This document shows, piece after piece, positions 1,959-57,755 of a stretch of DNA of 64,000 nucleotides. The position numbers and the translations under genes are program-made. The first letter of the stretch is position 1. Each line of letters starts with the position of its first letter. The stretch spans positions 186,001 through 250,000 of the forward strand of contig SIJG01000025.1 of the NCBI GenBank assembly GCA_023374025.1, in the 5' to 3' direction. The notes beneath the pieces are model-generated. The model was not told where the DNA came from, searched no databases, and saw only the letters and a program-made list of their open reading frames with translations. Source of the stretch: Heterodera schachtii. Its lineage: Eukaryota > Nematoda > Chromadorea > Rhabditida > Heteroderidae.

Positions 1959-3644
1959 CTAATTGCCAGGGCCAATGTAGCTAATCGAGTCTTTGCTGAA
2001 CAGAACTCGCACTGCCCAAAATATGATGACTCCAACAACAACGACAATGCCAAGGATGATGAGTGCCCATTTTGTACCTTTGCTACAATGGCACTTTTTG
2101 CCACCTTCACCACTTCCTTCACTGGAGCTGTCCTCGTCATGGTCATGGTTATGATTTTGGCCCATTTCAATATCACCACCATTTTCTTTCTTAGCCCCGC
2201 GCTTTCGTCGTGTTCGTCCGTTTTTTGCTGTGATGGCCATCATTTTGGGGTGGTGGTGGTGGTCAGGGCAATAAAAAATGTTTGCTTAAATTAAGAAAAA
2301 ATAATCATTAATTTTACACAGGACTCGGTTCGAGCCCGCTCCACAGCACAAATATTTTTAATTATTTTTTGTACAAAAAAGTAAAAAAGGACGACTATTG
2401 AAAATTATTTTTAATGTCTTTTTCAACCAAACTTGTCAATCAAAATTTAGGCATTTTTTCCACTTCGAAATAATATCTGTTATTGTAATAATTGTTTTTT
2501 TTTTTGCAATAAACATTAATTTAAAAAATGGAATTTTCGCTTACCATTATTAGCAATCGTTTCATATAGCCCATTGAAATTATGCCGAAATGTTCCAACA
2601 TTTTGCACGTTTTGTTCATTGAGCAATGCCTTTCTCCCAATTTCATTTATAGCATTGCTCAAAACAGTTGGAAGATCATTATTTGTGAAAATATTCACAA
2701 TATTTGCCAAGAAAACTTCAAAATTTTGGCAATCGCTTTTCAATTGTTTACACAAATCATTGCGCAATTTTCCAAAGTTGTCCATTTTTAATTCAAATTT
2801 GGCATTATCATTACACATAACGCCAACCGATGCTTTTTTCATCCCTTCAATTGCCAAATTGTCGCTAATTGTCCCTTCATTTGCCTTTTTGACTAAGTCC
2901 GATATTGCGTCCACAAAATCCCCACCCGATTTGAATGAACCTAAAAGTGGGTTGTTATGAATTTTTATTTATTTATAGGTAATAACAAAGGCTTCCTTTT
3001 TTAGGGGTATTTTCGGAAAATTTGAAAAATGGGCAAAAAAATAAAATTTAAAAAAACGGAATGAAAAAAGTATAGTTTTTTGGGAAAAAAATGTATGCTT
3101 TTCCATATTTTTTCTGCGCATTTGCTATGAAGAAAGGGGCTCAAAAATAGCATTTCTACGTTAAAACCCTAGTAATAACTAATTAATTACATAAATGGGC
3201 AGCCGAATTAAACCCAAAAATAATCAATAATAAAAAAATTACCCCGAAAAAAAAGAAAGGTGGAGTTATACTAAAATGTCAGAATTGTACTCAAATACAG
3301 TGTTATATTCAAATGTCGGGGTATCCTTAAATATCGGAGTATATTTCGAGGCACAAAAAATTTCTTGTCTCTATATGAAAAAGGTTTAAATTATCGGAAT
3401 CCGAATGAATTTAAGTTTTGCAGCGATATTTTTGGAAAATTTTTGAAAAACATACAAATTCAAAAAATCGCTGAAAGTTCTTTCAAAAATTTCATTTATT
3501 TTTCTTGAAATTGGTTAAGACTTTTTCTTTACCTCTAACTCCGTTTAATCCATGCGCCAATTCCGCCGTTTGATCGCTTTGGCATAACAAATGAATAAAT
3601 ATGATGAATAATGATGTGAATTTGGCGAATTTGAAAAAAAGCAT
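1959..3644 (-). CDS. Family gene A: signal peptide, helical ectodomain, RRKR site, TM anchor (277 aa)
   Basis: Three-exon model: exon 1 3533-3644, exon 2 2545-2940, exon 3 1959-2284. Donors are GAG|GTAAAG and ATG|GTAAGC; acceptors are TTTTAG| and TTTAAG|. Both introns are phase 1 and the total is 834 nt. Exon 1 encodes a signal peptide (MLFFKFAKFTSLFIIFIHLL). Exon 2 is an amphipathic helical domain with cysteines in VMCND and DLCKQL. Exon 3 gives HHHHPK, then KNGRTRRKR (convertase-like R-R-K-R), an Asn/His/Asp-rich and Ser/Glu-rich linker, KKCHC, a TM helix (WALIILGIVVVVGVIIFW) and a tail ending SYIGPGN. Predicted topology is type I with a sheddable ectodomain (inference). The large first intron is 592 nt. 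The domain family is unknown to me, but the architecture repeats in at least eight loci in this window. Confidence 0.75.
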
Positions 3645-8376: not shown

Positions 8377-8720
8377 AGCCCGATTCTCTGCTTATGAAGG
8401 ATGGCGAAAGCACACTGTTATACACATCCGCCGATTGCACCGCCAAAGAGAATCGGATGTGGTGTTGGTCTTATTTTCGGGCTCGAAAGCACTAATTCGG
8501 GTGCACCGCCAAAGAGAATCGGATGTGGTGTTGGTCTTATTTTCGGGCTCGAAAGCACTAATTCGGGTGCACGCCAAAGAGAATCGGATGTGGTGTTGGT
8601 CTTTGCACACCCGAAGTTAAGTTAGTTCTTTTCTATGTTCAATTGATTTTTGCTTTTATTTTCAGCTGTGTCTTCTTTTAATTATTTTTTACTATTTTTG
8701 CTGTGACTGAATAAATGTAT
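8376..8720 (+). pseudogene. Second exon, minisatellite and 3' UTR of plus-strand gene (block 2)
   Basis: Starts with GCCCGATTCTCTGC immediately after the retroelement. It carries the exon tail, about 2.6 units of the 66-bp repeat (8437-8611) and the conserved polyadenylation signal (8710-8715). It lacks the acceptor and the first part of the exon, so this gene copy cannot be spliced normally. Confidence 0.6.
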
Positions 8721-9936: not shown

Positions 9937-11507
9937 CTAATTGCCAGGGCCAATGTAGCTAATCGAGTCTTTGCTGAACAGAACTCGCACTGCCCAAAAT
10001 ATGATGACTCCAACAACAACGACAATGCCAAGGATGATGAGTGCCCATTTTGTACCTTTGCTACAATGGCACTTTTTGCCACCTTCACCACTTCCTTCAC
10101 CGGAGCTGTCCTCGTCATGGTCATGGTGATTATGACCACCATGGCCCATTTCAATATCACCATTTGGGCTGTTGTTCTTCGCGCGCTTTCGTCGTCGTCG
10201 TCCGTTTTTTGCTGTGATGGCCATCATTTTGGGGTGGTGGTGGTGGTCAGGGCAATAAAAAATGTTTGCTTAAATTAAGAAAAAATAATCATTAATTTTA
10301 CACAGGACTCGGTTCGAGCCCGCTCCACAGCACAAATATTTTTAATTATTTTTTGTACAAAAAAGTAAAAAAGGACGACTATTGAAAATTATTTTTAATG
10401 TCTTTTTCAACCAAATAGCAATTGTTTCATATATTCCATTGAAATTGTGCCGAAATATTCCAACATTTTGCAAGTTTTGGTCATTGAGCAATGCCTTTTT
10501 CCCAATTTCATTTATAGCATCGCTCAAAACAGCTGGTAGAACATTTGTGAAAATATTCAGAATATTTGCCAAGAAAATTTCAAAATTTTGGCCATCGCTT
10601 TTCAATTGTTTACACAAATCATTGCGCAATTTTCCAAGGTTGTCCATTTTTGATTCAAATTTGGCATTATCATTACACATAACGCCAACCGATGCTTTTT
10701 TCATCCCTTCAATTGCCAAATTGTCGCTAATTGTCCCTTCATTTGCCTTTTTGACTAAGTCCGATATTGCGTCCACAAAATCCCCACCCGATTTGAATGA
10801 ACCTAAAAGTGGGTTGTTATGAATTTTTATTTATTTATAGGTAATAACAAAGGCTTCCTTTTTTAGGGGTATTTTCGGAAAATTTGAAAAATGGGCAAAA
10901 AAATAAAATTTAAAAAAACGGAATGAAAAAAGTATAGTTTTTTGGGAAAAAAATGTATGATTTTGCATATTTTTTCTGCACATTTGCTATGAAGAAAGGG
11001 GCTCAAAAATAGCATTTCTACGTTAAAACCCCTAGTAATAACTAATTAATTACATAAATGGGCAGCCGAATTAAACCCAAAAATAATCAATAATAAAAAA
11101 ATTACCCCGAAAAAAAGAAAGGTGGAGTTATACTCAAATGTCAGAATTGTACTCAAATACAGTGTTATATTCAAATGTCGGGGTATCCTTAAATATCGGA
11201 GTATATTTCGAGGCCCAAAAAAATTTCTTGTCTCTATATGAAAAAGGTTTAAATTATCGGAATCCGAATGAATTTAAGTTTTGCAGCGATATTTTTGGAA
11301 AATTTTTGAAAAACATACAAATTCAAAAAATCGCTGAAAGTTCTTTCAAAAATTTCATTTATTTTTCTTGAAATTGGTTAAGACTTTTTCTTTACCTCTA
11401 ACTCCGTTTAATCCATGCGCCAATTCCGCCGTTTGATCGCTTTGGCATAACAAATGCATAAATATGATGAATAATGATGTGAATTTGGCGAATTTGAAAA
11501 AAAGCAT
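9937..11507 (-). pseudogene. Family gene B, exon 2 splice donor deleted
   Basis: Exon 1 (11396-11507) is intact. Exon 2 starts normally (acceptor at 10803-10804, first base 10802) and exon 3 (9937-10268) is intact, encoding RRRRKR, a His/Asp linker and the same TM helix as gene A. Compared with A (2432-2550), about 119 bp are missing at the end of exon 2, including its last codons and the GTAAGC donor. The frame then runs on into former intron sequence and stops at 10342. Unless a cryptic donor is used, the anchor exon cannot be joined and the product would be a secreted ectodomain with an aberrant tail. The other parts are nearly identical to A. Confidence 0.7.
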
Positions 11508-14783: not shown

Positions 14784-16707
14784 TGTATTTTAAATCATTG
14801 CTGGAATTTTGACATTATTTTTATGAAAATTAATTCGTTTTAGCTATTGGCAAGCCATTTTAGGCAATAAAGATCCAATTAAAATAAATTATTAAATTAT
14901 AATGGATATTATTTGCCCAAAGAAAAAAAAATTTTAATTTATCAATTAATTATGTAAATAGTGATATTATTGATTAATTTAAACTATAGATCCATTCATT
15001 AAAAATGAAATGCGCGATAATTTATTAATCGATTAAGCAAAAAAAGATTATTGAGACATCACTTCCTGCTGTTTCTGTTGTCGGAAGAAGGAGGCAAAAG
15101 CGCATGAATAATGCTGATAATAATAATGCTAATCAGCTTCATGGTGCTAATTTAAATCAGTTGGATAGGGAGTGATTATGCGATGAAGCAATCAAATCGA
15201 CATTCAGGTCCAGGTCGAGCTCTAATTAAAATAATTGATATTGAGGCATTGTTGAAATTTAATTTCCACATCTTTAATATAAACAGAAAAAGCATTGAGC
15301 TTCCCGTAAAGCTTTATGCGAATAGATAAATAATATGAATAAAGAAAAATAACAACGAAAAAAATTAAAATAAAATTACAAAAAAAGACAGAAAAGCCAA
15401 ATAATAAAGGAAATACAATAAAAAATCTAACAAAAATAAACCAAATTTTAAAAAAAAGAAACACAGAAATTTGTATAATAGAGGATGGACAAATTGAAAA
15501 GTCGATATGCCGAAAAATTTAGTGTGATTCTTCTTTTTTTATAGAGAAATTTAAAAACTAAACTTGGCAAAACCCTCTAGTAACACTTAAAAGAAACTTT
15601 TCAAGACCAAAATTTTTGAGAAAATCGTGCAAAAATATGGATGGCAAAAAATTCTATATCGTCTTGGAACAAAAATAATTCTCATGAGAGATAATACTCC
15701 CCCCATTCACCTCCTTAAAATTCGACTTTTCATTTGTTCCCATTTATCCATTCTAAATGTGTAGGGACCGGATTTGAAGCATATGCTTAAAAATTTTTCG
15801 TGTTCTAATTTGCTTAAACATGGAAATTTTTTTTTTTTTTGCAAAGTTTTTCGCGCATTTTTTTTAACCAATTTTTGATGCTTAGTTAAATGCTTAAAAA
15901 ATAGCAATTCTACGTTAAAATTTTTTGATTTGGTGAAGGTTTTTAGTGCATATAAAAGCATATTTTGGGGATTTTTGAGAATAAATGCATATTTGGCCAT
16001 TTTTGCGTTTTTAGAGCATATTTCGGTCATTTTTGGCAAATTTCCATAAGAAAAATGCGAAAAAAAGCGAAAAATACACCCCTAAGGATCGACTTTTTTG
16101 GAATTTTTTAAAAATACACTCTTAAAAATCGAAAAATTTTAACTTTTGTAAGAACTTTTGGTAAAAAAAATTTATTTATATAAAAATGTGATTTTGTTTT
16201 AGTATATAATAAAAATTTATAAAATTTTTTGCAATTGTCTAAGAAAGCTCCTTAGTCCATTGTTTTGGTCTTTTTAAATTTAATTATTAATTTATACCAA
16301 TTTTTGGCATTTTTTGAGGGTTAAAAGCCCTAGTAATAACTAATTAATTACATAAATGGGCAGCCGAATTGAACCCAAAGATAATCAATAATAAAAAAAA
16401 ATTACCCCGAAAAAAAGAAAGGTGGATTATATCCAAATGTCGGAATTATACTCAAAATACGGTGTTATATTCAAATGTCGGGGTATCCTTAAATATCGGA
16501 GTATATTTCGAGGCCCAAAAAAATTTCTTGTCTCCATATGCAAAAGACTAAAATTATCGGAATCCGAATGGATTTAAGTGTTGCAGCGATATTTTTGTAA
16601 AATTTTTGAAAAACTTACAAATTCTCCATAAAATTTCAAAAAATCGCTGAAAATTTTTTCAAAAATTTCATTTATTTTTTCTTGAAATTAGTTAACACCT
16701 TCTTTAC
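14784..16707. other. Block 3 region where family exons 2 and 3 are deleted
   Basis: It follows the block 1 sequence through the small ORF remnant and the start of the TIR element (to about 15895), then jumps. Sequence homologous to about 1853-3140, with exons 3 and 2, is absent. In its place, to about 16320, is a dispersed AT-rich repeat (CGAAAAATACACC, CATATTTCGGTC phrases) that recurs in opposite orientation at about 39050-39430. Block homology returns at CCCTAGTAATAACTAATT. Confidence 0.6.
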
Positions 16708-16819
16708 CTCCAACTCCGTTTGATTCATGCGCCAATTCCGTCGTTTGATCGCTTTGGCATAACAAATGAATAAATATGATGGATAATGATGTGAATTTGG
16801 CGAATTTGAATAAAAGCAT
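16708..16819 (-). pseudogene. Orphan exon 1 of family copy C
   Basis: A complete signal-peptide exon (MLLFKFAKFTSLSIIFIHLL...) with the GTTGGAG|GTAAAG donor, 112 nt like genes A, B and D. Exons 2 and 3 that should follow on the minus strand are deleted. No gene can be built. Confidence 0.7.
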
Positions 16820-18010: not shown

Positions 18011-18344
18011 TATTTGTTCCAGGCCCTACTTTAAAAAAATTTCTCCAACAAAATAAAACACTAAAATTGAAAATTTAAATTCTTTAAATTGAGTTAAATT
18101 ATATATCAATCGATTCCTCAAAAATTTACAGACCCCGAGAATAGGCGAGTGATATAAATTTTGACTCCATCTTCGGTCTCTGTGCCATATGATCAAGCAA
18201 CAAAAATACTAGTTAAACACTTTTGACATATTTTTACCTTTAGTTTTTCAAGCAGTTTTTGGTTTGAGCTTTTGAGTAAATAAATGCCTTTGGTTGCCGA
18301 AGTAATTCATTTTACGAATTATTTTGTAAATGAAAAAATAATTG
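18011..18344. other. Unique spacer before the large 66-bp array
   Basis: No gene or repeat recognised. It contains GACCCCGAGAATAGGCGAG and is not shared with the other blocks. Confidence 0.4.
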
Positions 18345-24300: not shown

Positions 24301-24545
24301 TAATTCGGGTGCACCGCCAAAGAGAATCGGATGTGGTGTTGGTATTATTTTCGGGCTCGAAAGCACTAATCCGGGTGCACCGCTGAGAAGAATCGGATGT
24401 GGTGTTGGTCTTATTTTCGGGCTCGAAAGCACTAATTCGGGTGCACCGCCAAAGAGAATCGGATGTGGTGTTATTCTTATTTTCGGCTCGAAAGCACTAA
24501 TCCGGGTGCACCGCTGAGAAGAAGCGGATGTGGTGTTGGTCTTTG
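18345..24545 (+). repeat. Giant 66-bp minisatellite, about 94 units
   Basis: About 6.2 kb of head-to-tail units (CACCGCCAAAGAGAATCGG ... CACTAATYCGGGTG), 66 bp with frequent 65-bp variants lacking one C of CACCGCC or one G of TTCGGGC. Because 66 is a multiple of three, long open frames arise on both strands (22-residue periods such as RQRESDVVLVLFSGSKALIRVH), broken wherever a 65-bp unit occurs. It occupies the same position, before the conserved 3' UTR, that holds about 2.6 units in blocks 1-3. Internal higher-order duplication is visible: 22737-23264 recurs 720 bp downstream, and about 260 bp repeats near 18680-19200. Confidence 0.95.
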
Positions 24546-24660
24546 CACACCCGAAGTTAAGTTAGTTCTTTTCTATGTTCAATTGATTTTTGCTTTTATT
24601 TTCAGCTGTGTCTTCTTTAATTATTTTTTACTATTTTTTGCTGTGACTGAATAAATTTAT
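24546..24660 (+). promoter_or_regulatory. Conserved 3' UTR with polyadenylation signal after the array
   Basis: TTTGCACACCCGAAGTTAAGTTAG... with the TTTTCAG tract and AATAAA, as in the other blocks. It shows that the array replaced the short one in place. Confidence 0.5.
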
Positions 24661-24909
24661 TTTAAGCCATTACTGGAATTTTGACATTATTTTTGTGAAA
24701 ATTCATTCGTTGTCGCTATTTCACCATCCAATTTTCCATTTCCATTAAAATCCTAATTTTAAGGAAATTCTTATTATTATTGGCATTGCCAGACGATTAA
24801 ATTCTTTAATCATCTCCAATCCATTGTTGGTTAGGTCAAATTTTTCATTCTATGTTAGTTTCGTGGTGCAACATTTGAGGGTTTGTACAACATTCCAATT
24901 TATACTAAG

Positions 24910-26383: not shown

Positions 26384-28088
26384 CTAATTCCCAGGTCCAA
26401 TGTAGCTAATCGAGTCTTTGCTGAACAGAACTTGCTTTGCCCAAATTGGAACGACTACAGCAAAAGCGACTGCGATAATTATGATGACTATCCATGTTTT
26501 TTTGCCGCACCTGCAACAGCACTTTTTGCCACTTTCACCACTTCCTTCACTGGAGCTGTCCTCGTCATGGTCATGGTTATGATTTTGGCCCATTTCAATA
26601 TCACCACCATTTTCTTTCTTAGCCCCGCGCTTTCGTCTTCGTCCGTTTTTTGCTGTGATGGCCATCATTTTGGGGTGGTGGTGATGGTCATGGCAATGAA
26701 AAATATTTGCTTAAAATTGATAAAAAATAATAATAATCAAAAATTCAATTTACTGTATTTTATTTATGTGCAAAATCCGGTTTTCTGTGAGAAAGATTAT
26801 TGTCATCAAAGGGGAGCGGATTTTTAGGGGGAAAATAATTCAATTTTGGGGCCTAACTAGTAGGGGCGAAAACAAACGGTAAGTAGCAAAAAACTTGAAA
26901 AAAATTGTGCCTTTTTCAATGAAAATAAATTAAAATCCAATAAATTATTTTATTCAGTAACCTTAATTACAATTGAATTAATTATCACCTTTTTCTTTGG
27001 CAAAAAAAAAAAAAGAATTATTCTAACAGAAAATTCGACTTTTCAGCTTGTTTTTATTATTTTTAGGTCAATATTTAAAGAAACTTTTCGAATTAGATGC
27101 CAAATGCCAAAAAAGTCCCTTAATTAAAAAATGGAATTTTTGCTTACCATTATTAGCAATCGTTTCATATATCCCATTGAAATTGTGCCGAAATGTGCCA
27201 ATATTTTGCTTGTTTTGGTCATTGAGCAATGCCTTTTTCTCAATTTCATTTATAGCATTGCTCAAAACAGTTGGAAGATCATTATTTGTGAAAATATTCA
27301 CAATATTTTCCACGAAAACTTCCAAATTTTGGCCATCGCTTTTGAATTGTTTACACAAATTGTTGCGCAATTTTCCAAGGTTGTCCATTTTTGATTCAAA
27401 TTTGGCATTATCATTACACATAACGCCAACCGAGATTTTTTTCATCCCTTCAATTGCCAAATCGTCGCTAATTGTCCCTTCATTTGCCTCATTGACTAAG
27501 TTCGATGCTGCGTCCACAAAATCCCCTCCCGACTTGAATGAATCTAAATAGTGGTTTGTTACGAATTTTTTATTTATAGATAATAACTAATTAACGAACT
27601 AATTAAATAAATGGACATAGAATTTAATGCAAAGATATTCAAGAATAAAAAACTAATAATTATCATTAGGGCCGAATTGAAGATGAATAAACCGAGAATT
27701 TGAACATCATTTATTGTTGAGTTCACAAAGTAAAGCTCACTTACGTTTTAATAAGTTTTCTTATAATAGAATCTGCAACAAATTTTTGAATATTTAAAAA
27801 ATGCGAAAATTAGGTAAAAAAAAATAAATAAAAAAAAACGGAAATGAAAAATTGAAAAAAAGCATGAATGGCACTCCTGAAACAAAAGAAAGGCCGGGAG
27901 TTATACTAATTCCCCATAAATTTTCGAGAAAACCGCTGGAAATTTTTTCAGAAATTTTGGTTACCACTTTCTTTACCTCCAACTCCGTTTGATCCATGCG
28001 CCAATTCCGCCGTTTGATCACTTTGGCACAACAAATGCACAAATATGATGAATAATGACGTGAATTTGGCGAATTTGAATAAAAGCAT
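26384..28088 (-). CDS. Family gene D: signal peptide, helical ectodomain, RRKR site, TM anchor (277 aa)
   Basis: Exon 1 27977-28088, exon 2 27148-27543, exon 3 26384-26709; the exon lengths (112, 396, 326) are identical to gene A. Donors GGAG|GTAAAG and ATG|GTAAGC, acceptors TTTAG| and TTTTAAG|, both phase 1. Exon 1 is a signal peptide (MLLFKFAKFTSLFIIFVHLL). The ectodomain retains both cysteines (VMCND, NLCKQF). Exon 3 has HHHPK, KNGRRRKR, the His/Asp and Ser/Glu linker as in A, then KKCCCRCGKK and a different TM helix (WIVIIIIAVAFAVVVPIW), before the same tail VLFSKDSISYIGPGN. All lesions seen in B and C are absent. Function unknown; type I sheddable membrane protein inferred. Confidence 0.75.
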
Positions 28089-35553: not shown

Positions 35554-36287
35554 TTAGGTCATTGGTGTTGGTTGGCCTCGACTAAGCAAATTGTTTGCTT
35601 AATGAGCAACAACAAAAAAATGTAATTTAAATCACGAAAATCACCAAAAAGTCGTCTAAAAAACGCAAAAAAGTCACAAAAAATGCCAAAAAAAAAAAAA
35701 AAAACAGGAAGAGAAAATAAAGACGAAAAACTAGCCAAAAGTAACAAAAATCAAAACCTTTAATAATGATGTTGTGGTAATTTTCACATTATAAAAAGTT
35801 TTTTGTCGCAACTTCACTGTTGGCATCACAACTCGATTTTAGAATATATTACTTTAAAATTAAATGATCCATTTAAAAAAAATATGCAATTTTCACTTAC
35901 CATTATTAGAATCATTTGATATATCCCATTGAAATTGTGCCAAAATTTTGTCATATTTTGCACGTTTTGATCACTGAGCTTTTTCTCAATTTCATTTATA
36001 GCATTGTTCACAGCAACTGATAGAACATCATTTTTGAAAGTATTCACAACAATGGCCATTAAAGCTTCCAAATTTTGGCCATCATTTTTCATTTGTTCAC
36101 ATAAATTGTTGCGCATTTTGTCCAATTTTGGTTCAAATTTGGCATCACTATACAAAATGCCTGCCAACCACAAAATGGTTTTGATTCATTCGTGAAAGTG
36201 CCAAATCGTCGCTAATTGCCCCTTCATTTGCCTCTTTTGCCAATTGATGTATTGAGTCACGAAAATCCACGCGCGACTTGAACAAAG
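35554..36287 (-). pseudogene. Family copy E: frameshifted ectodomain, anchor deleted
   Basis: Exon 2 (35901-36287) is closest to the plus-strand copies. It carries a 4-bp insertion (GGCAGGCATTTTG near 36165) that puts TAG in frame, a 6-bp deletion and a 1-bp loss before the donor ATG|GTAAGT. Exon 3 (35554-35597) retains the acceptor ATTAAG|CAAACAATTTG but is cut to 14 codons, fusing NNL directly to the tail LSRGQPTPMT and removing the basic motif and TM helix. No exon 1 is recognisable upstream, where a hAT-like MITE occupies the former intron 1. A clear pseudogene. Confidence 0.75.
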
Positions 36288-36323
36288 CTTAAAGTAGATT
36301 GTTAAGAAGAAGAACCCAATTGT

Positions 36324-41666: not shown

Positions 41667-42134
41667 CTTGGTATCATTCGACAGACTCAAGAGTTCTCTT
41701 TTAGATAACAAAATTTAAAAAAATTTCGTTATGTTTCAACAGAAACACGAGTTTTGAGCCAAGAAGGTCTTTCGCAATGACAAATTAGTCAAAGAGTGGG
41801 GCGTTCTTTTGACGTGATTTTTCAGGAGGAGGAGCGCTTTTTCGGCACTCCGTGCTTTAGTGTGGTCCGGATTCAGCGGATTTAAAAAGACGCATTACTG
41901 TGTTCATCGATGGACGGATCCAAATTAAACCCCCATCGACAACTTGTGAGGTGTTTTGGTGCGAAATGAAGATGCCGGTTTTCGGCAGTTTGATTCTGTT
42001 CTCAGGACCTGAAAAGGCTCTTTTGGAGGCTTGGGACCAGGTCTCTTGAGACAATTGGTCCGATTTATTAATACCATGCCCAAACACCTCATTTCCGTGT
42101 TGAAATTGAATGGCAATGTCACAAAATATTGGAA
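41667..42134. other. Spacer; weak minus-strand ORF only
   Basis: A 104-codon minus-strand frame (41857-42171; ...QNTSQVVDGGLIWIRPSMNTVM...) overlaps the edge of the neighbouring foldback. It has coding-like composition but no recognised family, so it may be an exon relic. Nothing else seen. Confidence 0.25.
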
Positions 42135-43038
42135 AATATCGGTCATAGGGCCCAAACTCAAAATTGCTCAAAAACGGTCAGAATCGATGTAAAAAGACTA
42201 GAAATGGGTAGGAAAAATAGAATTATGGGCGCGCTTGCCCTTTTTCAGGTTGAAAAAGTGCCGAAATTGAGTGCCAAACTCAGATGGGACTCAATTGACC
42301 GCACTATAAAAAGCACTCAAACGACATTTTAAATAATTTTTCTAGGGTAATTTGTGGCGCTGATCACGAATATGACCTTTATTTTGCAAAAATCCGAACC
42401 CCGAACCCTAATTCGAACAAAAAACCCGAAATTTAATTACTGAAAATAAACCAGTAATCAGAAAATGGTAAAAGAACGCCAAATATAAAAGATTGAATTT
42501 AGCTTATTGCGCTAAAAAACCGCCGCACACTCGACTACGGCGGCCAGTAGGTGGGGCGAGACTACGGGCTACGGAAGAAGTCCGCGCGTGATCCGCAGGC
42601 GGTTGACTGATTGGCGGGGGCCCTTCGGGCCCCCGCAGTCAACCGCCTGTGGCGCTCGTCAGACGTCTTCCTCCGCCCTCCGTCTCGCCCCACTACTTGC
42701 TCCGTCTTCGCATGCTCCCTTTTGCGAAAATTTGCAATTTTTATACTTAACTCGTTAAGTTTTCGATTCGGGGTTCGGATTTTTGCAAAATAAAGGTCAT
42801 ATTCGTGATCAGCGCCACAAATTACCCTAGAAAAATTATTTAAAATGTCGTTTGAGTGCTTTTTATAGTGCGGTCAATTGAGTCCCAGCTGAGTTTGGCA
42901 CTCAAATTCCGGCACTTTTTCAACCTGAAAAAGGGCAAGCGCGCCCATAATTCTATTTTTCCAACCCATTCCGAACCTTTTTACATCGATTCTGACCGTT
43001 TTTATGCATTTTTGAGTTTGGGCCCTATGACCGATATT
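42135..43038. mobile_element. Long foldback (inverted repeat) element with UUCG-capped core hairpin
   Basis: The left arm starting AATATCGGTCATAGGGCCC (42135) is complementary, with few mismatches, to the right arm ending GGGCCCTATGACCGATATT (43038), each at least about 280 bp. The GC-rich centre is also self-complementary: CAGGCGGTTGACTG pairs with CAGTCAACCGCCTG and encloses GGGGGCCC-TTCG-GGGCCCCC (42616-42635). No ORF or TSD identified. Confidence 0.8.
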
Positions 43039-43230
43039 TATGTTTATTAGTCTTTTATTTCTTCTCTAAAAAATTTAAATGTGTTTTATTAAGTGGTTTA
43101 TAATTTTGGAACATAAATTTGAGGGAAATATGGTTAGAAAAAATCTTTTTTTTTTCTTCCGGCATAAATGATCATTCATCACTGTCCGCAATTTTTTTCA
43201 TTATAGCATTTATATTATTTACTTTAATAG

Positions 43231-46200
43231 AGGGTTGATAATTGATTGCTAAATTTTTGCATGACATCATTGAACAGAGTGGTTAACAATTGATTGTTAA
43301 ATTTTTGCATGACATCATTAAACAGAGTGGTTAACAATTGATTGCTAAATTTTTGTTAATGACATCATTAAACAGAGTGGTTAACAATTGATTGCTAAAT
43401 TTTTGCTAATGACATCATTAAACAGAGTGGTTAACAATTGATTGCTAAATTTTTGTTAATGACATCATTAAACAGAGTGGTTAACAATTGATTGCTAAAT
43501 TTTTGCTTTGACATCATTGAACAGAATGGTTAACAATTGATTGCTAAATTTTTGCTAATGACATCATTAGACAGAGTGGTTAACAATTGATTGCTAAATT
43601 TTTGCTAATGACATCATTAAACAGAGTGGTTAACAATTGATTGCTAAATTTTTGCTAATGACATCATTAAACAGAGTGGTTAACAATTAATTGTTAAATT
43701 TTTGCATGACATCATTAAACAGAGTGGTTAACAATTGATTGCTAAATTTTTGCATGACATCATTGAACAGAGTGGTTAACAATTGATTGCTAAATTTTTG
43801 CTAATGACATCATTAAACAGAGTGGTTAATAATTGATTGCTAAATTTTTGGCTAATGACTTCATTAAACAGAGTGGTTAACAATTGATTGCTAAATTTTT
43901 GTTAATGACATCATTAAACAGATTGGTTAATAATTAATTGCTAAATTTTTGCATGACATCATTAAACAGAGTGGTTAACAATTGATTGCTAAATTTTTGC
44001 ATGACATCATTGAACAGAGTGGTTAACAATTGATTGCTAAATTTTTGCATGACATCATTGAACAGAGTGGTTAACAATTGATTGCTAAATTTTTGCTAAT
44101 GACATCATTAAACAGAGTGGTTAATAATTGATTGCTAAATTTTTGCTAATGACTTCATTAAACAGAGTGGTTAACAATTGATTGCTAAATTTTTGTTAAT
44201 GACATCATTAAACAGATTGGTTAATAATTAATTGCTAAATTTTTGCATGACATCATTAAACAGAGTGGTTAACAATTGATTGCTAAATTTTTGCATGACA
44301 TCATTGAACAGAGTGGTTAACAATTGATTGCTAAATTTTTGCTAATGACATCATTAAACAGAGTGGTTAATAATTGATTGCTAAATTTTTGCTAATGACA
44401 TCATTGAACAGAGTGGTTAATAATTGATTGCTAAATTTTTGCTAATGACATCATTAAACAGAGTGGTTAATAATTGATTGCTAAATTTTTGCTAATGACA
44501 TCATTGAACAGAGTGGTTGATAATTGATTGCTAAATTTTTGCATGACATCATTGAACAGAGTGGTTAATAATTGATTGCTAAATTTTTGCTAATGACATC
44601 ATTAAACAGAGTGGTTAATAATTGATTGCTAAATTTTTGCTAATGACATCATTAAACAGAGTGGTTAATAATTGATTGCTAAATTTTTGCTAATGACATC
44701 ATTAAACAGAGTGGTTAACAATTGATTGCTAAATTTTTGTTAATGACATCATTAAACAGAGTGGTTAACAATTGATTGCTAAATTTTTGTTAATGACATC
44801 ATTAAACAGAGTGGTTAACAATTGATTGCTAGATTTTTGCATGACATCATTGAACAGAGTGGTTAACAATTGATTGCTAAATTTTTGCATGACATCATTG
44901 AACAGAGTGGTTAACAATTGATTGCTAAATTTTTGCTAATGACATCATTGAACAGAGTGGTTGATAATTGATTGCTAGATTTTTGCATGACATCATTGAA
45001 CAGAGTGGTTAACAATTGATTGCTAAATTTTTGCTAATGACATCATTGAACAGAGTGGTTGATAATTGATTGCTAAATTTTTGCATGACATCATTGAACA
45101 GAGTGGTTAACAATTGATTGCTAAATTTTTGCTAATGACATCATTAAACAGAGTGGTTAACAATTGATTGCTAAATTTTTGTTAATGACATCATTAAACA
45201 GAGTGGTTAACAATTGATTGCTAAATTTTTGCTTTGACATCATTGAACAGAATGGTTAACAATTGATTGCTAAATTTTTGCCAATGACATCATTAGACAG
45301 AGTGGTTAACAATTGATTGCTAAATTTTTGCTAATGACATCATTAAACAGAGTGGTTAATAATTGATTGCTTAATTTTTGCTAATGACATCATTAAACAG
45401 AGTGGTTAACAATTGATTGCTAGATTTTTGTTAATGACATCATTAAACAGAGTGGTTAATAATTAATTGTTAAATTTTTGCTAATGACATCATTAAACAG
45501 AGTGGTTAACAATTGATTGCTAAATTTTTGCTAATGACATCATTAAACAGAGTGGTTAACAATTGATTGCTAGATTTTTGTTAATGACATCATTAAACAG
45601 AGTGGTTAATAATTGATTGCTAAATTTTTGCTAATGACATCATTAAACAGAGTGGTTAACAATTGATTGCTAAATTTTTGCTAATGACATCATTAAACAG
45701 AGTGGTTAATAATTAATTGTTAAATTTTTGCATGACATCATTAAACAGAGTGGTTAACAATTGATTGCTAAATTTTTGCATGACATCATTGAACAGAGTG
45801 GTTAACAATTGATTGCTAAATTTTTGCTAATGACATCATTAAACAGAGTGGTTAATAATTGATTGCTAAATTTTTGCTAATGACTTCATTAAACAGAGTG
45901 GTTAACAATTGATTGCTAAATTTTTGTTAATGACATCATTAAACAGAGTGGTTAATAATTAATTGCTAAATATTTGCATGACATCATTAAACAGAGTGGT
46001 TAACAATTGATTGCTAAATTTTTGCATGACATCATTGAACAGAGTGGTTAACAATTGATTGCTAAATTTTTGCTAATGACATCATTAAACAGAGTGGTTA
46101 ATAATTGATTGCTAAATTTTTGCTAATGACATCATTGAACAGAGTGGTTAATAATTGATTGCTAAATTTTTGCTAATGACATCATTAAACAGAGTGGTTA

Positions 46201-48448
46201 ATAATTGATTGCTAAATTTTTGCTAATGACATCATTGAACAGAGTGGTTGATAATTGATTGCTAAATTTTTGCATGACATCATTGAACAGAGTGGTTAAT
46301 AATTGATTGCTAAATTTTTGCTAATGACATCATTAAACAGAGTGGTTAATAATTGATTGCTAAATTTTTGCTAATGACATCATTAAACAGAGTGGTTAAT
46401 AATTGATTGCTAAATTTTTGCTAATGACATCATTAAACAGAGTGGTTAACAATTGATTGCTAAATTTTTGTTAATGACATCATTAAACAGAGTGGTTAAC
46501 AATTGATTGCTAAATTTTTGTTAATGACATCATTAAACAGAGTGGTTAACAATTGATTGCTAGATTTTTGCATGACATCATTGAACAGAGTGGTTAACAA
46601 TTGATTGCTAAATTTTTGCATGACATCATTGAACAGAGTGGTTAACAATTGATTGCTAAATTTTTGCTAATGACATCATTGAACAGAGTGGTTGATAATT
46701 GATTGCTAAATTTTTGCATGACATCATTGAACAGAGTGGTTAACAATTGATTGCTAAATTTTTGTTAATGACATCATTAAACAGAGTGGTTAATAATTAA
46801 TTGCTAAATTTTTGCATGACATCATTAAACAGAGTGGTTAACAATTGATTGCTAAATTTTTGCATGACATCATTGAACAGAGTGGTTAACAATTGATTGC
46901 TAAATTTTTGCTAATGACATCATTAAACAGAGTGGTTAATAATTGATTGCTAAATTTTTGCTAATGACATCATTGAACAGAGTGGTTAATAATTGATTGC
47001 TAAATTTTTGCTAATGACATCATTAAACAGAGTGGTTAATAATTGATTGCTAAATTTTTGCATGACATCATTAACAGAGTGGTTAACAATTGATTGCTAA
47101 ATTTTTGCTAATGACATCATTAAACAGAGTGGTTAATAATTGATTGCTATATTTTTGCTAATGACTTCATTAAACAGAGTGGTTAACAATTGATTGCTAA
47201 ATTTTTGTTAATGACATCATTAAACAGAGTGGTTAATAATTAATTGCTAAATTTTTGCATGACATCATTAAACAGAGTGGTTAACAATTGATTGCTAAAT
47301 TTTTGCATGACATCATTGAACAGAGTGGTTAACAATTGATTGCTAAATTTTTGCTAATGACATCATTAAACAGAGTGGTTAATAATTGATTGCTAAATTT
47401 TTGCTAATGACATCATTGAACAGAGTGGTTAATAATTGATTGCTAAATTTTTGCTAATGACATCATTAAACAGAGTGGTTAATAATTGATTGCTAAATTT
47501 TTGCTAATGACATCATTAAACAGAGTGGTTAATAATTGATTGCTAAATTTTTGCTAATGACATCATTAAACAGAGTTGTTAACAATTGATTGCTAAATTT
47601 TTGTTAATGACATCATTAAACAGAGTGGTTAATAATTAATTGCTAACTTTTTGCATGACATCATTAAACAGAGTGGTTAACAATTGATTGCTAAATTTTT
47701 GCATGACATCATTAAACAGAGTGGTTAACAATTGATTGCTAAATTTTTGTTAATGACATCATTAAACAGAGTGGTTAATAATTAATTGCTAACTTTTTGC
47801 ATGACATCATTAAACAGAGTGGTTAACAATTGATTGCTAAATTTTTGCATGACATCATTGAACAGAGTGGTTAACAATTGATTGCTAAATTTTTTCTAAT
47901 GACATCATTAAACAGAGTTGTTAACAATTGATTGCTAAATTTTTTCTAATGACATCATTAAACAGAGTTGTTAACAATTGATTGCTAAATTTTTGTTAAT
48001 GACATCATTAAACAGAGTGGTTAATAATTGATTGCTAAATTTTTGCTAATGACATCATTAAACAGAGTGGTTAATAATTGATTGCTAAATTTTTGCTAAT
48101 GACATCATTAAACAGAGTGGTTAATAATTGATTGCTAAATTTTTGCTAATGACATCATTAAACAGAGTGGTTAACAATTGATTGCTAAATTTTTGTTAAT
48201 GACATCATTAAACAGAGTGGTTAACAATTGATTGCTAAATTTTTGCATGACATCATTAAACAGAGTGGTTAACAATTGATTGCTAGATTTTTGCATGACA
48301 TCACTGAACAGAGTGGTTAACAATTGATTGCTAAATTTTTGCTAATGACATCATTAAACAGAGTGGTTAACAATTGATTGCTAAATTTTTGCATGACATC
48401 ATTAAACAGAGTGGTTAACAATTGATTGCTAAATTTTTGCATGACATC
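43231..48448 (+). repeat. Giant 49/51-bp AT-rich minisatellite, about 100 units, upstream of a family gene
   Basis: Unit: TTGCTAAATTTTTG(CTA)ATGACATCATTRAACAGAGTGGTTAAYAATTGAT. 51-bp units (GCTAATGAC or GTTAATGAC) alternate with 49-bp units (GCATGAC). There is no ORF. Higher-order duplication with a 1731-bp period is seen: the variant GACTTCATT at 44151 and 45882, and GTGGTTGAT at 44513 and 46244. The array ends 201 bp before the exon 1 ATG of the family gene at 48649. Degenerate single units lie at the same position upstream of the 50595 copy. Confidence 0.95.
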
Positions 48449-48648
48449 GGTTGGCAATTAAAGGAAGGGATGGATATATTAGAAGAAACCTTCATACATT
48501 TAAGCGAAGTCACTTTTCACATATTATTCCTTTTTTTACGAATTTCTTTTAATTTTTTCTTATAAATAATATAGTGACAAAAAATTCCCAAAAGCTGATT
48601 TTCGATTAAAATTTGATTAGAATATTCAAAAAAGTTAAATTCTTAAAA
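48449..48648 (+). promoter_or_regulatory. Proximal promoter/5' UTR region of family gene at 48649
   Basis: AGAAACCTTCATACATTTAAGCGAA... ATATTATTC is conserved with 50440-50590 before the paralogue, which supports a functional constraint or recent duplication. No TATA box can be assigned. Confidence 0.4.
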
Positions 48649-49787
48649 ATGTTTTTGTTCAACTTTTTGCCATGCTTTATTTTTATGCATTTGCCAAGTG
48701 GTAAAATGGCACATGCACCGAACGGAATTGGAGGTAAAATGAATGGGTGCACCCGAAAACGTAGCCGGAAGATTTTTTGGACCATAACTTTGTTCTTTGT
48801 AAATCAAATTAAGTATTCTTGGAGTATTCGGTAGCTCTAAGGTTTTTTCGAGTTTTTTTTTGTTGCCCTCATTAATTCTTAATAATTCATTTTTAGATTT
48901 GTTCAAATCGGGCGGTGGTTTTGTCGACTCAATGCTTGAATTGACTAAAGAGGCAAATGGAGGGGCAATTAGCGACGATACGGTACTTTCGCGCATGACC
49001 CAACACCATTTTGTGGTTAGCATTTTGTGTAGTGATGCCAAATTTGAACCAAAATTGGATAAAATGCGCAACAATTTATGTGAACAAATGAAAAAAGATG
49101 GCCAAAATTTGGAAGCTTTAATGGCCATTGTTGTGAATACTTTCAAAAATGATGTTCTATCAGTTGCTGTGATCACTGCTATAAATCAAATTGACAAAAA
49201 GGCATTGCTCAATGACCAAAACGTGCAAAATATAACAAAATTTTGGTACTATTTCTATGGGATATATCAAATGATTGCTAATAATGGTAAGTTAAAATGT
49301 TCTAAAATTGAATTGTGATATCCCAGCAGTGAAGTTGGGATAATAAATTTTATAATATGAAAATTACCACCACATGATTATTAAAGGTTTTGATTTTGTT
49401 ACTTTTGGCTAGTTTTTCGTCTTTATTTTCTCTTCCTGTTTTTTTCTTTTTACTTTTTTTTTGGCATTTTTTGTGACTTTTTGGCGTTTTTAGACGATTT
49501 TTTCGTGATTTAAATTCTCAGCCCTAATTATCACATTTTTTGCGCATTAAGCAAACAATTTGCTTTCCCACCAACACAAAATGGTGGCCATCAACACGTC
49601 TAAAAACGGCAGACGAAGACGAAAGCGCGCTGATGAAGAAACTGGCTGCTGTGGGGGTGGAGAAGATAAAAGAGGAAATAAATGTCCTTTTTTCGGCATA
49701 TTTGCATTCATTCTTCTAGCCATCATATTTGCCACTGTGTTCATCATTGTTCTTAGCCGAGGCAGCCAACCAACACCAATGACCTAA
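48649..49787 (+). CDS. Family gene (plus strand): signal peptide, ectodomain, RRRRKR site, TM anchor (236 aa)
   Basis: Exon 1 48649-48733, exon 2 48897-49286, exon 3 49552-49787; donors GGAG|GTAAAA and ATG|GTAAGT, acceptors TTTTTAG| and CATTAAG|, both phase 1, total 711 nt. Signal peptide MFLFNFLPCFIFMHLPSG. The ectodomain starts DLFKSGGGFVDSML and has cysteines in ILCSD and NLCEQM. Exon 3 reads ANNLLSHQHKM, then KNGRRRRKR, a Cys/Gly-rich linker (GCCGGGE), TM helix (FFGIFAFILLAIIFATVFIIV) and the short tail LSRGSQPTPMT. The R-R-K-R/R-R-R-K sequences match proprotein-convertase cleavage sites, so the ectodomain may be released (inference). The intact promoter lies next to the 5.2-kb minisatellite, which may affect expression. 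Confidence 0.78.
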
Positions 49788-50594: not shown

Positions 50595-52031
50595 ATGTTT
50601 TTGTTCAACTTTTTGTCATTCATAATTTTTATGCATTTGCCAAATGCTCAAATGGCAAATGGACTGAACGGAATAGGAGGTAAAATAAATGGGTGCAGCC
50701 AAAACGTCGCCGGAAGATTTAAATTATATGGCTGATATCATAATAAAATTTTTCGAATTAAAATTCACTAAATAATTGGATTAGCGATTCATTTTATTTT
50801 TACTGAAAAAATGCTTTATAATTATCTTCGAATAGTTTTTTGGTTCCGGTCAGAAAAATCACGGGTTTCTCGTCTCGGTTTAGGCTTTTCGGTCTCCGTC
50901 TTCAAAAGTTTCAATTTTTCCACCGTCGGTGCCTGTCGGCACCACCGGGCCCAAAATCTTCATTGGAAGAAAAGCCTCGGGTTTTTTGTGTCTCGGTCTC
51001 AAATCTTGGGAAATTTTTGGTCTCGAATATCACTAACAATTGGGTTCTTCTTCTTAACAAGCCACTTTTATTTAGATTTGTTCAACTCGGGAGGGGATTT
51101 TCTGGACTCAATGCTTGAATTGGCAAAAGAGGCAAATGAAGGCACAATTAGCGTCGATTTGGCACTTTCACGGGTGACAAAACACCATTTTGTGGTTGGC
51201 ATTTTGTGTGGTGATGCCAAATTTGAAACAAAATTGGACAAAATGCGCAACAATTTATGTGAACAATTGAAAAGCGATCGCAAAAATTTGCAAGCTTTGA
51301 TGGCCAATGGTTGTGAATATTTTCACAAGCAATGATCTTCAAACTGTTTTAAACAATGCTATTAATGAAATTGAGAAAAAGGCTTTGCTAAATGACCAAA
51401 ACATGCAAAATATTGGAACATTTCGGCATAATTTCAATGGGATATATGAAATGATTGATAATAATGGTAGATAAATTCCATTTTGTAAATGGATAATTAT
51501 TTTTTAATAAAATAGTTATTTTGGGTTATGTAAATAAAATTTTTTGGTTGAAAATTTTCTCGAAAATTTTTTAATTTTCTAGTAAATTGTTTAAATTGGT
51601 GAAAAAAAATAAGAACTTCGTTTTTTGCACAGTTTCATTGAAATGTGAGTAAATTTTGTCCTAAAAAAGTAATACCTATTAAAAAACAAAAATCCCAAAA
51701 GCAATTAAAAAACATTAAGAAAAACTTAAAATTTTTCATATTTTTTGCTCATTAAGCAAACAATTTGCTTTCCCACCAACACAAAATGATGGTGGTGGTC
51801 AACAACACAATTAAAAACGGCAGACGAAGACGAAAGCGCATGATTAACTACGCATCATTTATTAGAAGCACGAATCGCAATAATGATGTCGAAAGTGGCC
51901 AGGGTGGTGGAGGAGGAGGAGAAGAAGGACGAGGATTTGCAATTCTATGTCTCTGCATGTTGTTACCCTTTATGTTGATCATATATTTGATCTTCTTCCT
52001 CTACAATCATTTTTACCGAGGTCACCATTGA
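50595..52031 (+). pseudogene. Family copy at 50.6 kb, single-base frameshift in exon 2
   Basis: Exon 1 50595-50679 (MFLFNFLSFIIFMHLPNAQM..., donor GGAG|GTAAAA), exon 2 51076-51466, exon 3 51757-52031. Exon 2 is 391 nt instead of 390: relative to 48897-49286 there is one extra base in GCCAATGGTTGTG (about 51301-51313), giving a stop at 51333-51335. All splice sites and exon 3 (KNGRRRRKR, a Gly/Glu-rich linker, TM helix of Leu/Cys/Phe residues, tail FYRGHH) are intact. Either a very young pseudogene or an assembly/base-call error. Intron 1 carries part of a GAGACC-type hAT MITE. Confidence 0.7.
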
Positions 52032-54144: not shown

Positions 54145-55299
54145 TTACGGTCCCTGCTGCTGCGGTTGCTGGCCTTGAAGCGGTTGCTGATTTTGCTGAT
54201 CATATGCCGCCACCACTGACTTACATATAGAAATAGTTGCTACGGTACTTACAGCAAGAAATAAAACATAGAATAAAAACCAAAGAAAAATTGAAAGTTT
54301 GGCACTTTGCAAATGGAAATGGAGTGCCAGAAAAATGATGTAAACAAAAAAGAGCATAGAAACTGCCAACATGAAACCGCATAATCCCGCAGACCATGTC
54401 TGCCTGTTTATTTCCCGCTGATTCTGTGCCCAATTTTGTAGCCGTTCAACACATTGCATGCGTTTTTGGCGCCGAGTTGGGCCGAACAATGATGGCACAT
54501 CAATGACAGCAGCAGCAGCAGAAACATTGGCATTCCCAGCGATCTGAGAGAAATATTAATTAGAGAGAGATTAGGTCTCCAAAAAATGCATAATTAGTTG
54601 GGATGGCATTTTTATTAATTAACCCATTAGGTTTAGTTTTAGTATGATTATCAGCTTTAGGTCAAGAAAATAAATTTAAGGGGTTTCTATTTAAAAATAT
54701 TTAAATTTTGTTTAAAAAAGTTTCAAAGAAAATTTATAAAAAAAGATTAAATTTTTAACAACCATTTTTTATTAATGAGTCAATTTTCTCACCTTTTGAA
54801 TGGTCAAAAATGAATACATTATAAATTTCAGATTTTTTGTTACTTTCTCCGAATTTTCTTTGTTTTCTGCATTTAAATATTCATTTTTGGCAATTTGTTC
54901 AATCATTTTGCTCATTAAACCATTAATGTCAGTGCTTTTCAACAAATTTATTGCAATTATTTGCGCATTTTTCACTGTTTTGTCCATATTTTGGCCATTT
55001 TTTAATTGGTTGCAAAATTCTTTTCGAACTTTTTCAAAATTGTCATCCATTTTCAATTCAAAATTTTGAACATCGCACAGAATGCCAAATGCATTTTTTT
55101 CTACCCATTCTTTTGCCAAATTAGCGTCAAATGTTCCCGCATGAGTTCCATTTTGCTTCGTTGGCAAAACCGAGTCCAACAAATCATGTGCCAATTTAGA
55201 CATGCCTTGAGAAAATGTATGTTCAAAGGGGTGGTGCCGAAGACTTAAAATTTCAGAAACACTCAATTTTATGCCAAAAATTTCCCAATTCCTGTCCAT
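54145..55299 (-). CDS. Divergent family member F, two-exon model with two TM segments (301 aa)
   Basis: Exon 54793-55299 and exon 54145-54543 joined by a phase-0 intron (donor AAAAG|GTGAGA, acceptor CTCTCAG|). The first exon matches the family ectodomain in FGILCDVQNFELKMDDNFEKVRKEFCNQLK, retaining both cysteines. The second has a short Ala/Val run, GPTRRQKR (basic, but not the canonical RRRRKR), two hydrophobic segments (GFMLAVSMLFFVYIIFLA and FLWFLFYVLFLAVSTVATIS) and a Gln-rich tail. No signal-peptide exon was found upstream, and the ATG chosen (MDRNWEIFG) is simply the first. It may be incomplete at the 5' end. Function unknown. Confidence 0.55.
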
Positions 55300-55370
55300 C
55301 CCAGGTGTGTTTCGTCGTGAAATCCAATAATTACTTTATTAATTACAAAGACAAATGGACAAAATGTTAG

Positions 55371-55441
55371 GCCTCGGGTGGGAATCGAACCCACTCGCAT
55401 ACCCTTTTCCGTGGGCAGCTTTACCATTGAGCTACCAAGGC
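55371..55441 (-). tRNA. tRNA-like sequence, probably a pseudogene
   Basis: 71 nt on the minus strand: 7-bp acceptor stem (GCCTTGG/CCGAGGC, one G-U), D arm (GCTC-AATGGTA-AAGC), T arm (GTGGG-TTCGATT-CCCAC). The anticodon arm TGCCC/GGGTA would have an 8-nt loop (ACGGAAAA) without U33, so no anticodon can be read. Best taken as a tRNA pseudogene or the head of a SINE. A covariance-model scan would decide. Confidence 0.5.
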
Positions 55442-56650
55442 ACAGCCGCCCTTTCTTTTATGGATCTTATCAACCCCGGTTTCCGCGTTTTACCATCCAC
55501 TCAGCTTCTTCCTTCATTACCTTGATGGTGTTTTTCAGCTTTTGGCACATTCATCTGTTCGGCATTACTTTTAAAATCCATAAAAAATAAAATAGCAAAA
55601 AATATATTCATTTTTCGAAAATTAATACAAATTATTTTTTTTAAAAAGTTGTGAATGCTTTTTATTTTTGTTTATTAAAATTCTCAATGATAAAAAGGAA
55701 AATTGAAGCAATAATGCCACGTATAATGGATTTTTTGCAATGAATAAATTTTAAATAATATTTTAAATATAATAAATCAATAATAAATATATAAAAAAAT
55801 AATAATAATTCAATGATTTTTCAGAGAGGTTTGACCAAAACATTATGTTCCAATTAATTTAGAAAAAGTTGAGGCTAATTAATAATTCAAACTGAAAGTT
55901 AAGTTTGAATTTGACGCGAAACCGGCATAACCGAAAACCGGGGGTACCGGTTAATAACCGGTCGTGAACAACCCTAATAAACCTAAAAATATCATCTCTA
56001 GTGAAAACAACACGTTTAAGGCCAATTTTAATGACAATATATGTAAAATTAAATTAATTGTCTTGAAAAAATGCTGTATTCTAATTTATTAATTCAATTA
56101 AAAAATAATAATAAGAATCGACTAAATTAATTAGAACTATTTTAAATAAAATTTAAAACCAATTTAGCATGTGACCAAAGATTGGATCGCACAAAATTGA
56201 AAATTTAATCAATGTAAAACAAATTTATCATAAAAATAGAATTGACCAAATAAGAAAGGAAATATTAAAAAACAAATGTAAAACCATAGAAAAAAGTTGT
56301 GTATAAAAATGAAAAATCCATATAAATGAATAAAGATATATTGACTCTGTAAATAAATGCTTCAATTTGGGTCCCCGAATATCCGCAGAAACAAATTTTC
56401 CTATTTTTTATGATAAAAAAAATTGGCAAAAAATGATACAACTTCGTTGGTTTTTTGTTAAATTGCTTTATTGGTTAACAGGGATCGGTTCAATAAATTT
56501 TTAACATTGTCCTTGTTACATTTTTTAAAATTTTGCTTTCACCAGAAATATTATGAACTTTTTGTTAATTGAAGCATTAATCACATTAATTAGCCCTAAT
56601 AAGAAAGGGTCGAAAATCAATTTTCAATCGCTGGACGATGAAAGCAAAGC
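55442..56650. other. AT-rich intergenic DNA, no gene seen
   Basis: The only structured spot is 55916-55965, where ACCGG/CCGGT phrases (AAACCGGCATAACCG, GGTACCGGTTAATAACCGGT) could be the end of a mobile element. Confidence 0.5.
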
Positions 56651-56719
56651 TTAATTATCCATCTTGAAAACCACCACTTAATCCACATTGCTGCTGCTGT
56701 TCAATGAAGCAATGCTTGA

Positions 56720-57755
56720 TCATTTTGTAGAAATAATATAAAAATACAAATGCATATGCGCAGATGATATACACCAAAAGCGCGTAATAACCTGTTCTTG
56801 AAATCTTCTCACCAAGTGAATTATTAAGCATCGCATAACTACCAAAAAAGGATAAAGGACTAATGATAGAAGCCTCAATTGCCATTCTTTTATATTTATC
56901 GCATTGCTCACGGTTTCGCGGGCATTGCTTATCCGATTGGATAAGTAATGAAAGCCTTTGCGAAGAGTTCGCTTTCTTCGCCTTCTTTTGCTGCTGTTTT
57001 TGATGATACCTTTTTGGGGTTGAAAAATTGGAAATTTTGTTGCAGGAAATATTGCTGTATTTTACCATTATAAACAATTTAATTAAATTGAATTAATTAC
57101 CTTTAATAATTTCATTGAATTGCACAAATCCATTCATTGCTAATTCAATAATTTTCGAAAAATGCTTTTGGTTTTCATCAGTGAGAGGCAAATTTTTCTG
57201 AATTTTTGCAAGCATTTTGTTTTTGTTGTTCAGTAGCTCATCAGTGTTGTTGTTGTCCATTTCGACCATTTCGTTAATGTTTTCATTGAATTCTTCTCCG
57301 TTGTTTTTCAATTTTTCACAGAAATTTTGTAAATTTTTTTTCGCATTTTCGTCCATTTGAAATGCAAATTTTGAATTACAAAATAAACGAATTGACGCTT
57401 TTTCAATCCTTTCTTCGTCCAACACATTAACAGCAGAGTTTCTCGAGTTTATTAATCCATCGACCATATTTGATGCAGAATCCATCATTTCATTTAGCGT
57501 TTTCACCATTTCTAAAGGGAATATAAATTACACTTTTAAAATAAATAAAGCATTTAAATTAAATCTTTTTTTTAGTCCTAATATATTACGAAAATTGTAA
57601 AATTCATTCCATGTTTTATACATTTAAGAACGAAAAGTTTTTTTTCTCATACCTTTCTGATTTTCCGAAAATTGATCAACATTATTGCGCCGATGCTGTT
57701 GACTTTTGTTTATCATAAGCACCAACAAAACGCTAATTACACCAATTAAGGCCAT
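56720..57755 (-). CDS. Divergent family member G: signal/anchor, ectodomain, RRRRKR, TM (282 aa)
   Basis: Exon 1 57653-57755, exon 2 57101-57511, exon 3 56720-57054. Donors AAAG|GTATGA and AAAG|GTAATT, acceptors CCTTTAG| and ATACAG|, both phase 1, total 849 nt. Exon 1 starts MALIGVISVLLVLMI (signal or anchor). Exon 2 keeps the family core (ERIEKASIRLFCNSKFAFQM...NFCEKLK). The homologous acceptor and phase place exon 3 in the frame IIKNSSKRRRRKRTLRKG, matching the family basic motif, followed by one hydrophobic segment (LRLLSLVLYPFLVVMRCLII). Intron 2 is only 46 nt. A second long frame (56655-57077) overlaps exon 3 and encodes two TM-like segments with a Gln-rich tail resembling member F, so the used frame is not certain. 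Confidence 0.6.

Follow-up and report, generated by a model that had tools for sequence, protein, structure and literature searches.

The DNA analyzed here, referred to as the window, is a 64,000-nucleotide stretch of the 178.5-Mb, 356-contig genome of the beet cyst nematode Heterodera schachtii, which parasitizes crops; it covers positions 186001-250000 of contig C25. A preliminary description of this sequence had proposed that a three-exon gene on the forward strand at 48,649-49,787 (hereafter the focal gene) consists of a signal-peptide exon, a two-cysteine exon and a last exon encoding KNG-RRRRKR followed by a membrane helix, a design borne out by our reading, in which splice borders and phases agree. 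Exon 1 (48649..48733) encodes the predicted signal peptide and ends in phase 1 at a donor, GAG/GTAAAA (the slash marking the exon border), read directly from the sequence. Exon 2 (48897..49286), whose donor and acceptor were scanned, encodes the ectodomain, which is predicted to be helical and has its two cysteine codons at 49028-49030 and 49079-49081, with 16 residues between them. Exon 3 (49552..49787), which begins at the acceptor ATTAAG/CA, encodes a linker, KNG-RRRRKR, the membrane helix and a short tail. In the translation, RRRRKR, a predicted furin-type cleavage site whose motif is enriched across the family described below, lies at 49611..49628, and the predicted membrane helix, with 22 hydrophobic residues, at 49689..49754. 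Both introns have GT/AG borders and are in phase 1, as read from the sequence, and the TTAAG/CA acceptor of exon 3 is common to the focal gene and two other copies in the window, A and E. An array of 48-50-bp repeats of about 5 kb (43160-48450) stops about 200 bp 5′ of the focal ATG, and degenerate units of 48-50 bp are also present 5′ of a neighboring copy at 50.6 kb.

The splicing of the focal gene had originally been made by hand. Copy E (26384..28088, reverse strand; exons 27977-28088, 27148-27543 and 26384-26709) matches over its whole length the published H. schachtii model niasHS_009665 (P0004, 277 aa), which joins the same three parts. Both junctions of this model split a codon after its first base (phase 1), as in the focal gene, thus providing independent support for the hand-made splicing. 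The accessible text of PMC11817004 describes the H. schachtii gene set as built from ab initio prediction, RNA sequencing, Iso-Seq and protein homology. Copy A (1959..3644, reverse strand) also has three open exons (3533-3644, 2545-2940 and 1959-2284), and the second part of its exon 2 together with exon 3 corresponds to niasHS_009666 (P0003, 188 aa).

We searched the genome with seven exon-2 queries, keeping matches at E≤0.001 and merging neighbors by hand; the resulting counts are lower bounds. At least 110 exon-2 loci, fragments included, were found on 26 contigs, whereas nine had been noted earlier, and in at least 74 of them the match ran without interruption for 100 or more residues. The largest clusters were on C11 (26 loci), C25 (21) and C27 (12). 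Among 5.8 billion proteins, three relatives were found at E≤0.001, namely niasHS_009665, niasHS_009666 and niasHT_025656 of H. trifolii, by searches that need shared exact words and do not thereby show that the family is absent from Globodera or H. glycines. All three are named only 'hypothetical protein' and are not grouped as a family in the sources found. In niasHT_025656, the end of exon 2 is followed by GRRTKR ahead of hydrophobic segments. Six pieces of the window and the first of eight predicted full-length members gave no Pfam match above the cut-off; at E≤1, the eight members together gave 22 families, each with one member and at best 4e-4, with cut-offs shown for the first member only. 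The sequence search of the PDB gave no entry below E 0.17, and a literature search covering titles and abstract openings of the best-ranked records found no publication on the family. Within the scope of the Pfam, PDB-sequence, protein and literature searches, these results support the original view that a family with this combination of parts is undescribed. Judged by its sequences, this is a real, large gene family with a consistent design, undescribed as far as searched.

We then analyzed the basic site and the membrane anchor in 34 unique loci (40 had been returned with flanks, six of them repeats), which were picked by match score and not by motif. The motif test was R-x-[KR]-R followed within 140 residues, in an open frame, by a 19-residue stretch with a mean hydropathy of at least 1.6, all within 1,500 nucleotides of exon 2. 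The combination was present downstream on the sense strand in 26 of the 34 loci, compared with 2/34 downstream on the antisense strand and 0/34 upstream on each strand, so that the convertase-substrate motif R-x-[KR]-R accompanies exon 2 in 26/34. With the stricter RR-x-[KR]-R, the contrast was 22/34 downstream versus 0/34 in all three controls. Since the 34 loci are paralogues, these statistics describe a contrast with the controls and not independent origins. Basic site and membrane segment were also found together in two of four further, more distant loci. The anchors that follow the site vary in length, in number of hydrophobic segments and in composition; between the focal gene and copy E, identity is 77% in exon 2, 42% in exon 3 and 44-48% in the introns, exon 1, exon 3 and the introns together lying at 42-48%. 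Domain and site persist and the anchor does not, which is the pattern expected if the anchor is discarded once a protease has cut at the site. In the same genome, exons of the convertase P-domain (PF01483) score over the cut-off on contigs C10 and C53. From its sequence context, RRRRKR, to which the preliminary description assigned no function, is best fitted by a predicted convertase site.

Other elements of the design were more variable than had been described. Phase-1 introns had been taken as invariant, but a crude scan of 37 loci placed the top-scored exon-2 donor in phase 1 at 22 loci, in phase 0 at 13 and in phase 2 at one (absent from one), and the top-scored acceptor in phase 1 at 21, phase 0 at eight and phase 2 at seven (absent from one); the second intron of the divergent relative F, in the window, is also best read as phase 0. 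The spacing of the two cysteines, given earlier as about 20-25 residues, was 19 or 20 residues in 30/37 loci; the focal gene has 16. Six of the 37 had no scored pair: two truncated loci, L029 and L046, whose gap is in fact 19 residues; L042 and L049, which lack cysteines; and L050 and L055, which have one. Among the eight predicted full-length members, the invariant columns include both cysteines and R-x-K-R. Upstream of exon 2, a signal-peptide-like exon with a donor was found at 23/37 loci on the sense strand versus 0/37 on the antisense strand. At one G-type locus, L040 (C22:1720545-1720940), a single open frame of 262 residues runs from exon 2 through the intron position into exon 3, so an unspliced reading is possible there.

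To the first description, variable anchors suggested diversifying pressure. This was not supported by comparison of A, D (another window copy), E, the focal gene and Z, a tandem copy just outside the window (C25:181577-183280): the ratio of nonsynonymous to synonymous substitution rates (dN/dS) of exon 2 was 0.70-1.27 in ten pairs, that is, about 1. The six pairs valid for exon 3 gave 3.18 (A-D), 2.08 (A-Z), 1.18 (E-Z), 1.04 (D-E), 0.69 (A-E) and 0.27 (D-Z), and the two high values are due to a patch that has the look of conversion and not of mutation. Copies A and E are 88-93% identical in exons and 55-62% in introns, which indicates that the exons were constrained over that span. By contrast, A and Z differ by substitutions at 0/847 intron positions (with 4 gap columns), 41/836 exon positions and 11/2759 positions in all the non-coding sequence of the shared unit (Fisher 2e-17), and A and D differ at 39/827 exon and 5/736 intron positions. 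In exon 3, between 2197 and 2123, A has the letter of E at 19 of 19 sites that differ between A and Z. The A/Z pattern is best explained by gene conversion among subfamilies confined to exons, because only the exons are similar enough between subfamilies to recombine, the introns being too dissimilar.

Several observations restrict this explanation. Exon-limited divergence is not a rule in eight other close pairs, so that the A/Z exon divergence is a local observation. At 13 sites of exon 3 the letter of A is common to E and a second outgroup copy (C25:177 kb), and Z and D may thus be the converted copies, so that the exchange may have run in either direction. At six of the 41 A-Z exon sites the letter occurs in no copy but A, so part of the divergence also stems from donors outside the sample or from new mutations. 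The A/Z exon differences could instead have been produced by assembly polishing, the exons of A and E being alike enough to draw each other's reads. Such an artefact seems unlikely to us, since P0003, from an independent assembly, has the identical protein for the second part of exon 2 and exon 3 of A, and an error in the exons of A would have to recur there; P0003 is silent on Z and D.

Taking these results together, we lean towards the view that the family encodes precursors tethered to the membrane, from which a proprotein convertase of the furin or kexin type likely frees the ectodomain. The precursor would enter the secretory pathway via its predicted signal peptide, and its small, two-cysteine helical domain would be displayed while tethered by the membrane anchor. 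A proprotein convertase would then cut after R-x-[KR]-R, at a site presumably facing the Golgi lumen, and release the domain. The free domain, of about 14 kDa, would be the working product and the anchor would be discarded, leaving anchors free to differ in length, membrane segments and linker make-up while ectodomain and site persist. New exon variants would likely arise by tandem duplication and exon-limited gene conversion. As the site of action we prefer, as a guess, the worm-plant interface or the worm surface, because the searches turned up relatives in just two species, both of Heterodera, and because the loci form tandem clusters with many broken copies.

Several points weigh against release by a convertase. 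The site was not found within 1,500 nucleotides in 8/34 loci, nor in two of the four additional loci, and in 3 of the 26 positives (L024, L025 and L029) it has the form KKRIRR. In copy D, the anchor exon is severed from the reading frame. By the rule used, 14 of the 37 loci have no signal-peptide-like exon within 800 nucleotides. Structure prediction, a check that had been proposed, returned models with a mean predicted local distance difference test score (pLDDT) of 54 and 39, too poor to use. Membrane proteins usually favor positive charge on the cytosolic side. A lumenal basic cluster next to the membrane contradicts this preference, which can be taken as favoring a protease site or as a sign of a different topology; if exon 1 is not a cleaved signal peptide, the orientation in the membrane could be inverted. 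Finally, the promoters gave no support for gland expression. The sequence ATGCCA, which we take to be the letters of the DOG box, occurs ahead of A, D and E at a distance of 0.7-1 kb, within or next to repeats, and once each upstream of F and of the 50.6-kb ruin; neither the focal gene nor relative G has one at up to 1 kb.

Among the alternatives, a role as host-directed secreted effectors, with gland cells freeing the ectodomain for delivery to the plant, is possible, and we entertain it tentatively. It would suit a cyst nematode with an orphan domain, a signal peptide and tandem amplification; against it stand the lack of a clear gland promoter motif in the upstream sequences and an exon-2 dN/dS of about 1. 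The accessible text of PMC11309470 gives the absence of transmembrane domains as a criterion of the published H. schachtii effector list, so that genes of this kind would have been missed. In this family hydrophobic segments follow the site, which would exclude it from a list defined as in that text (PMC11309470) and may explain why it was overlooked.

More doubtful is that the products are stable membrane proteins from which nothing is released, RRxKR acting as a charge signal that orients the neighboring helix or as a retrieval-like signal. The basic run does stand ahead of hydrophobic segments, and in L031, L038 and the H. trifolii protein two cysteines lie between a pair of hydrophobic stretches, an arrangement that would suit a loop outside the cell with RRKKR inside. 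A cleaved signal peptide, however, would put the site in the lumen, the wrong sign for a charge signal, and the core kept in 22/34 loci is R-R-x-[KR]-R, which is the convertase pattern and not any basic run.

It is unlikely, in our view, that the proteins are shed by the hypodermis as parts of the cuticle or precuticle, in the manner of ZP-domain proteins or membrane-type collagens. ZP-domain proteins have the full order of signal peptide, domain, site and anchor. As far as sequence alone can tell, the order from signal peptide to furin-like site to anchor recurs here, whole in P0004, and it differs in that no ZP match is listed for the scanned members and that the ectodomain is short, predicted to be helical and has two cysteines. 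In the accessible text of PMC11304992, nematode ZP-domain and collagen families use furin-type sites, in collagens beside the membrane segment, which help to free or assemble the matrix part. Membrane-type collagens are described there as a large nematode family with an RxxR furin-type site shortly after the membrane segment, many of them apparently cleaved by BLI-4 (PMC11304992). They are, however, type II proteins with Gly-X-Y repeats, whereas no collagen match is listed for the scanned members of this family and no Gly-X-Y was seen by eye. Such turnover and so narrow a spread were also judged unusual for core cuticle parts.

Least probable of these alternatives is that the loci are mostly decaying repeats of a once-functional gene that was spread by segmental duplication and now drifts: 36/110 loci are without an uninterrupted 100-residue match, an open exon 2 is no proof of an intact gene (copy D is counted among the 74), exon-2 dN/dS is near 1 among recent copies and the 36-kb and 50.6-kb copies are broken, but exon 2 is open in 74 loci, the exons of A and E are 88-93% identical against 55-62% for their introns, and the basic site is kept ahead of unlike anchors.

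An extension of convertase release, which we regard as a long shot, is that the roughly 110 loci make up an arsenal of clip-on proteins specific to the lineage, in which interchangeable anchors bring the common two-cysteine domain to the Golgi and a convertase releases it, the repertoire being renewed by templated, exon-only exchange that leaves introns untouched; it would be a counterpart, between tandem genes, to the editing proposed for the HYP effectors of cyst nematodes. Like this family, HYP effectors are described in the accessible text of PMC11228951 as a highly variable family of plant-parasitic nematodes whose variation is confined to part of the gene. Unlike it, they have shuffled motifs at single loci (PMC11228951), compared with about 110 loci here and conversion-like exons at A, D and Z. 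The word transmembrane does not occur in the accessible main text of PMC11228951. HYP genes were compared by description only, and in our family exon 2 aligns end to end with no visible repeat shuffling. If release by a convertase is correct, a whole class of convertase-released secreted proteins lies outside current effector lists, which, going by the accessible text of PMC11309470, drop proteins with membrane helices. The tandem copies, with near-identical introns and flanks and different exons, are a clean natural experiment in which exon-limited gene conversion is directly testable. That question bears on nematodes whose hyper-variable effector genes are already debated, as the accessible text of PMC11228951 indicates.

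The remaining copies in the window are in various states. Copy D (9940..11507, reverse strand) retains its exons but is broken or truncated: the exon-2 donor is deleted and exon 2 reads on as ...ETIA-IWLKKT.... The architecture ascribed in the preliminary description to A, D, the focal gene and G thus stands for A, the focal gene and G and fails for D. An orphan exon 1 lies at 16706..16819 (reverse strand), with no exon 2 matched beside it, and a ruin near 36 kb (35557..36308, reverse strand) has a broken frame, a changed first cysteine and a scrap of exon 3. The 50.6-kb copy adjoining the focal gene (50595..52020, forward strand) is indeed a ruin, as had been stated, its exon-2 frame being broken near 51304, while an exon 3 with RRRRKR is readable. 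Relative F (54145..55611, reverse strand) has exon 1 at 55521-55611, exon 2 at about 54793-55230 and exon 3, with RRQKR and membrane segments, at 54145-54543; it holds as a divergent relative, but its second intron reads as phase 0 and not as phase 1. Relative G (56720..57755, reverse strand), also divergent, has exons at 57653-57755, 57101-57511 and about 56720-57009, the last of them with RRRRKR. F-like and G-like genes adjoin on three contigs, C11 (302536-307596), C15 (606327-609782) and C25 (window 54784-57511), which suggests an old paired unit. A gene resembling a transfer RNA gene, with an odd four-base anticodon call, lies at 55370-55441 (reverse strand) within intron 1 of F.

Three further features of the window deserve mention. 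Inside the gene array, an 835-residue open frame at 5887-8391 (reverse strand) scores over the Pfam cut-offs for reverse transcriptase, RNase H and integrase and presumably belongs to a Ty3/gypsy-like retroelement. Tandem repeats of about 66 bp form a 6.5-kb array (18231-24720) that has a guanine-cytosine content near 50% and several open frames on both strands, one of which was scanned and gave no Pfam match. At 42134-43039, paired inverted repeats of 135-168 nucleotides, 92-93% complementary, resemble a small inverted-repeat element.
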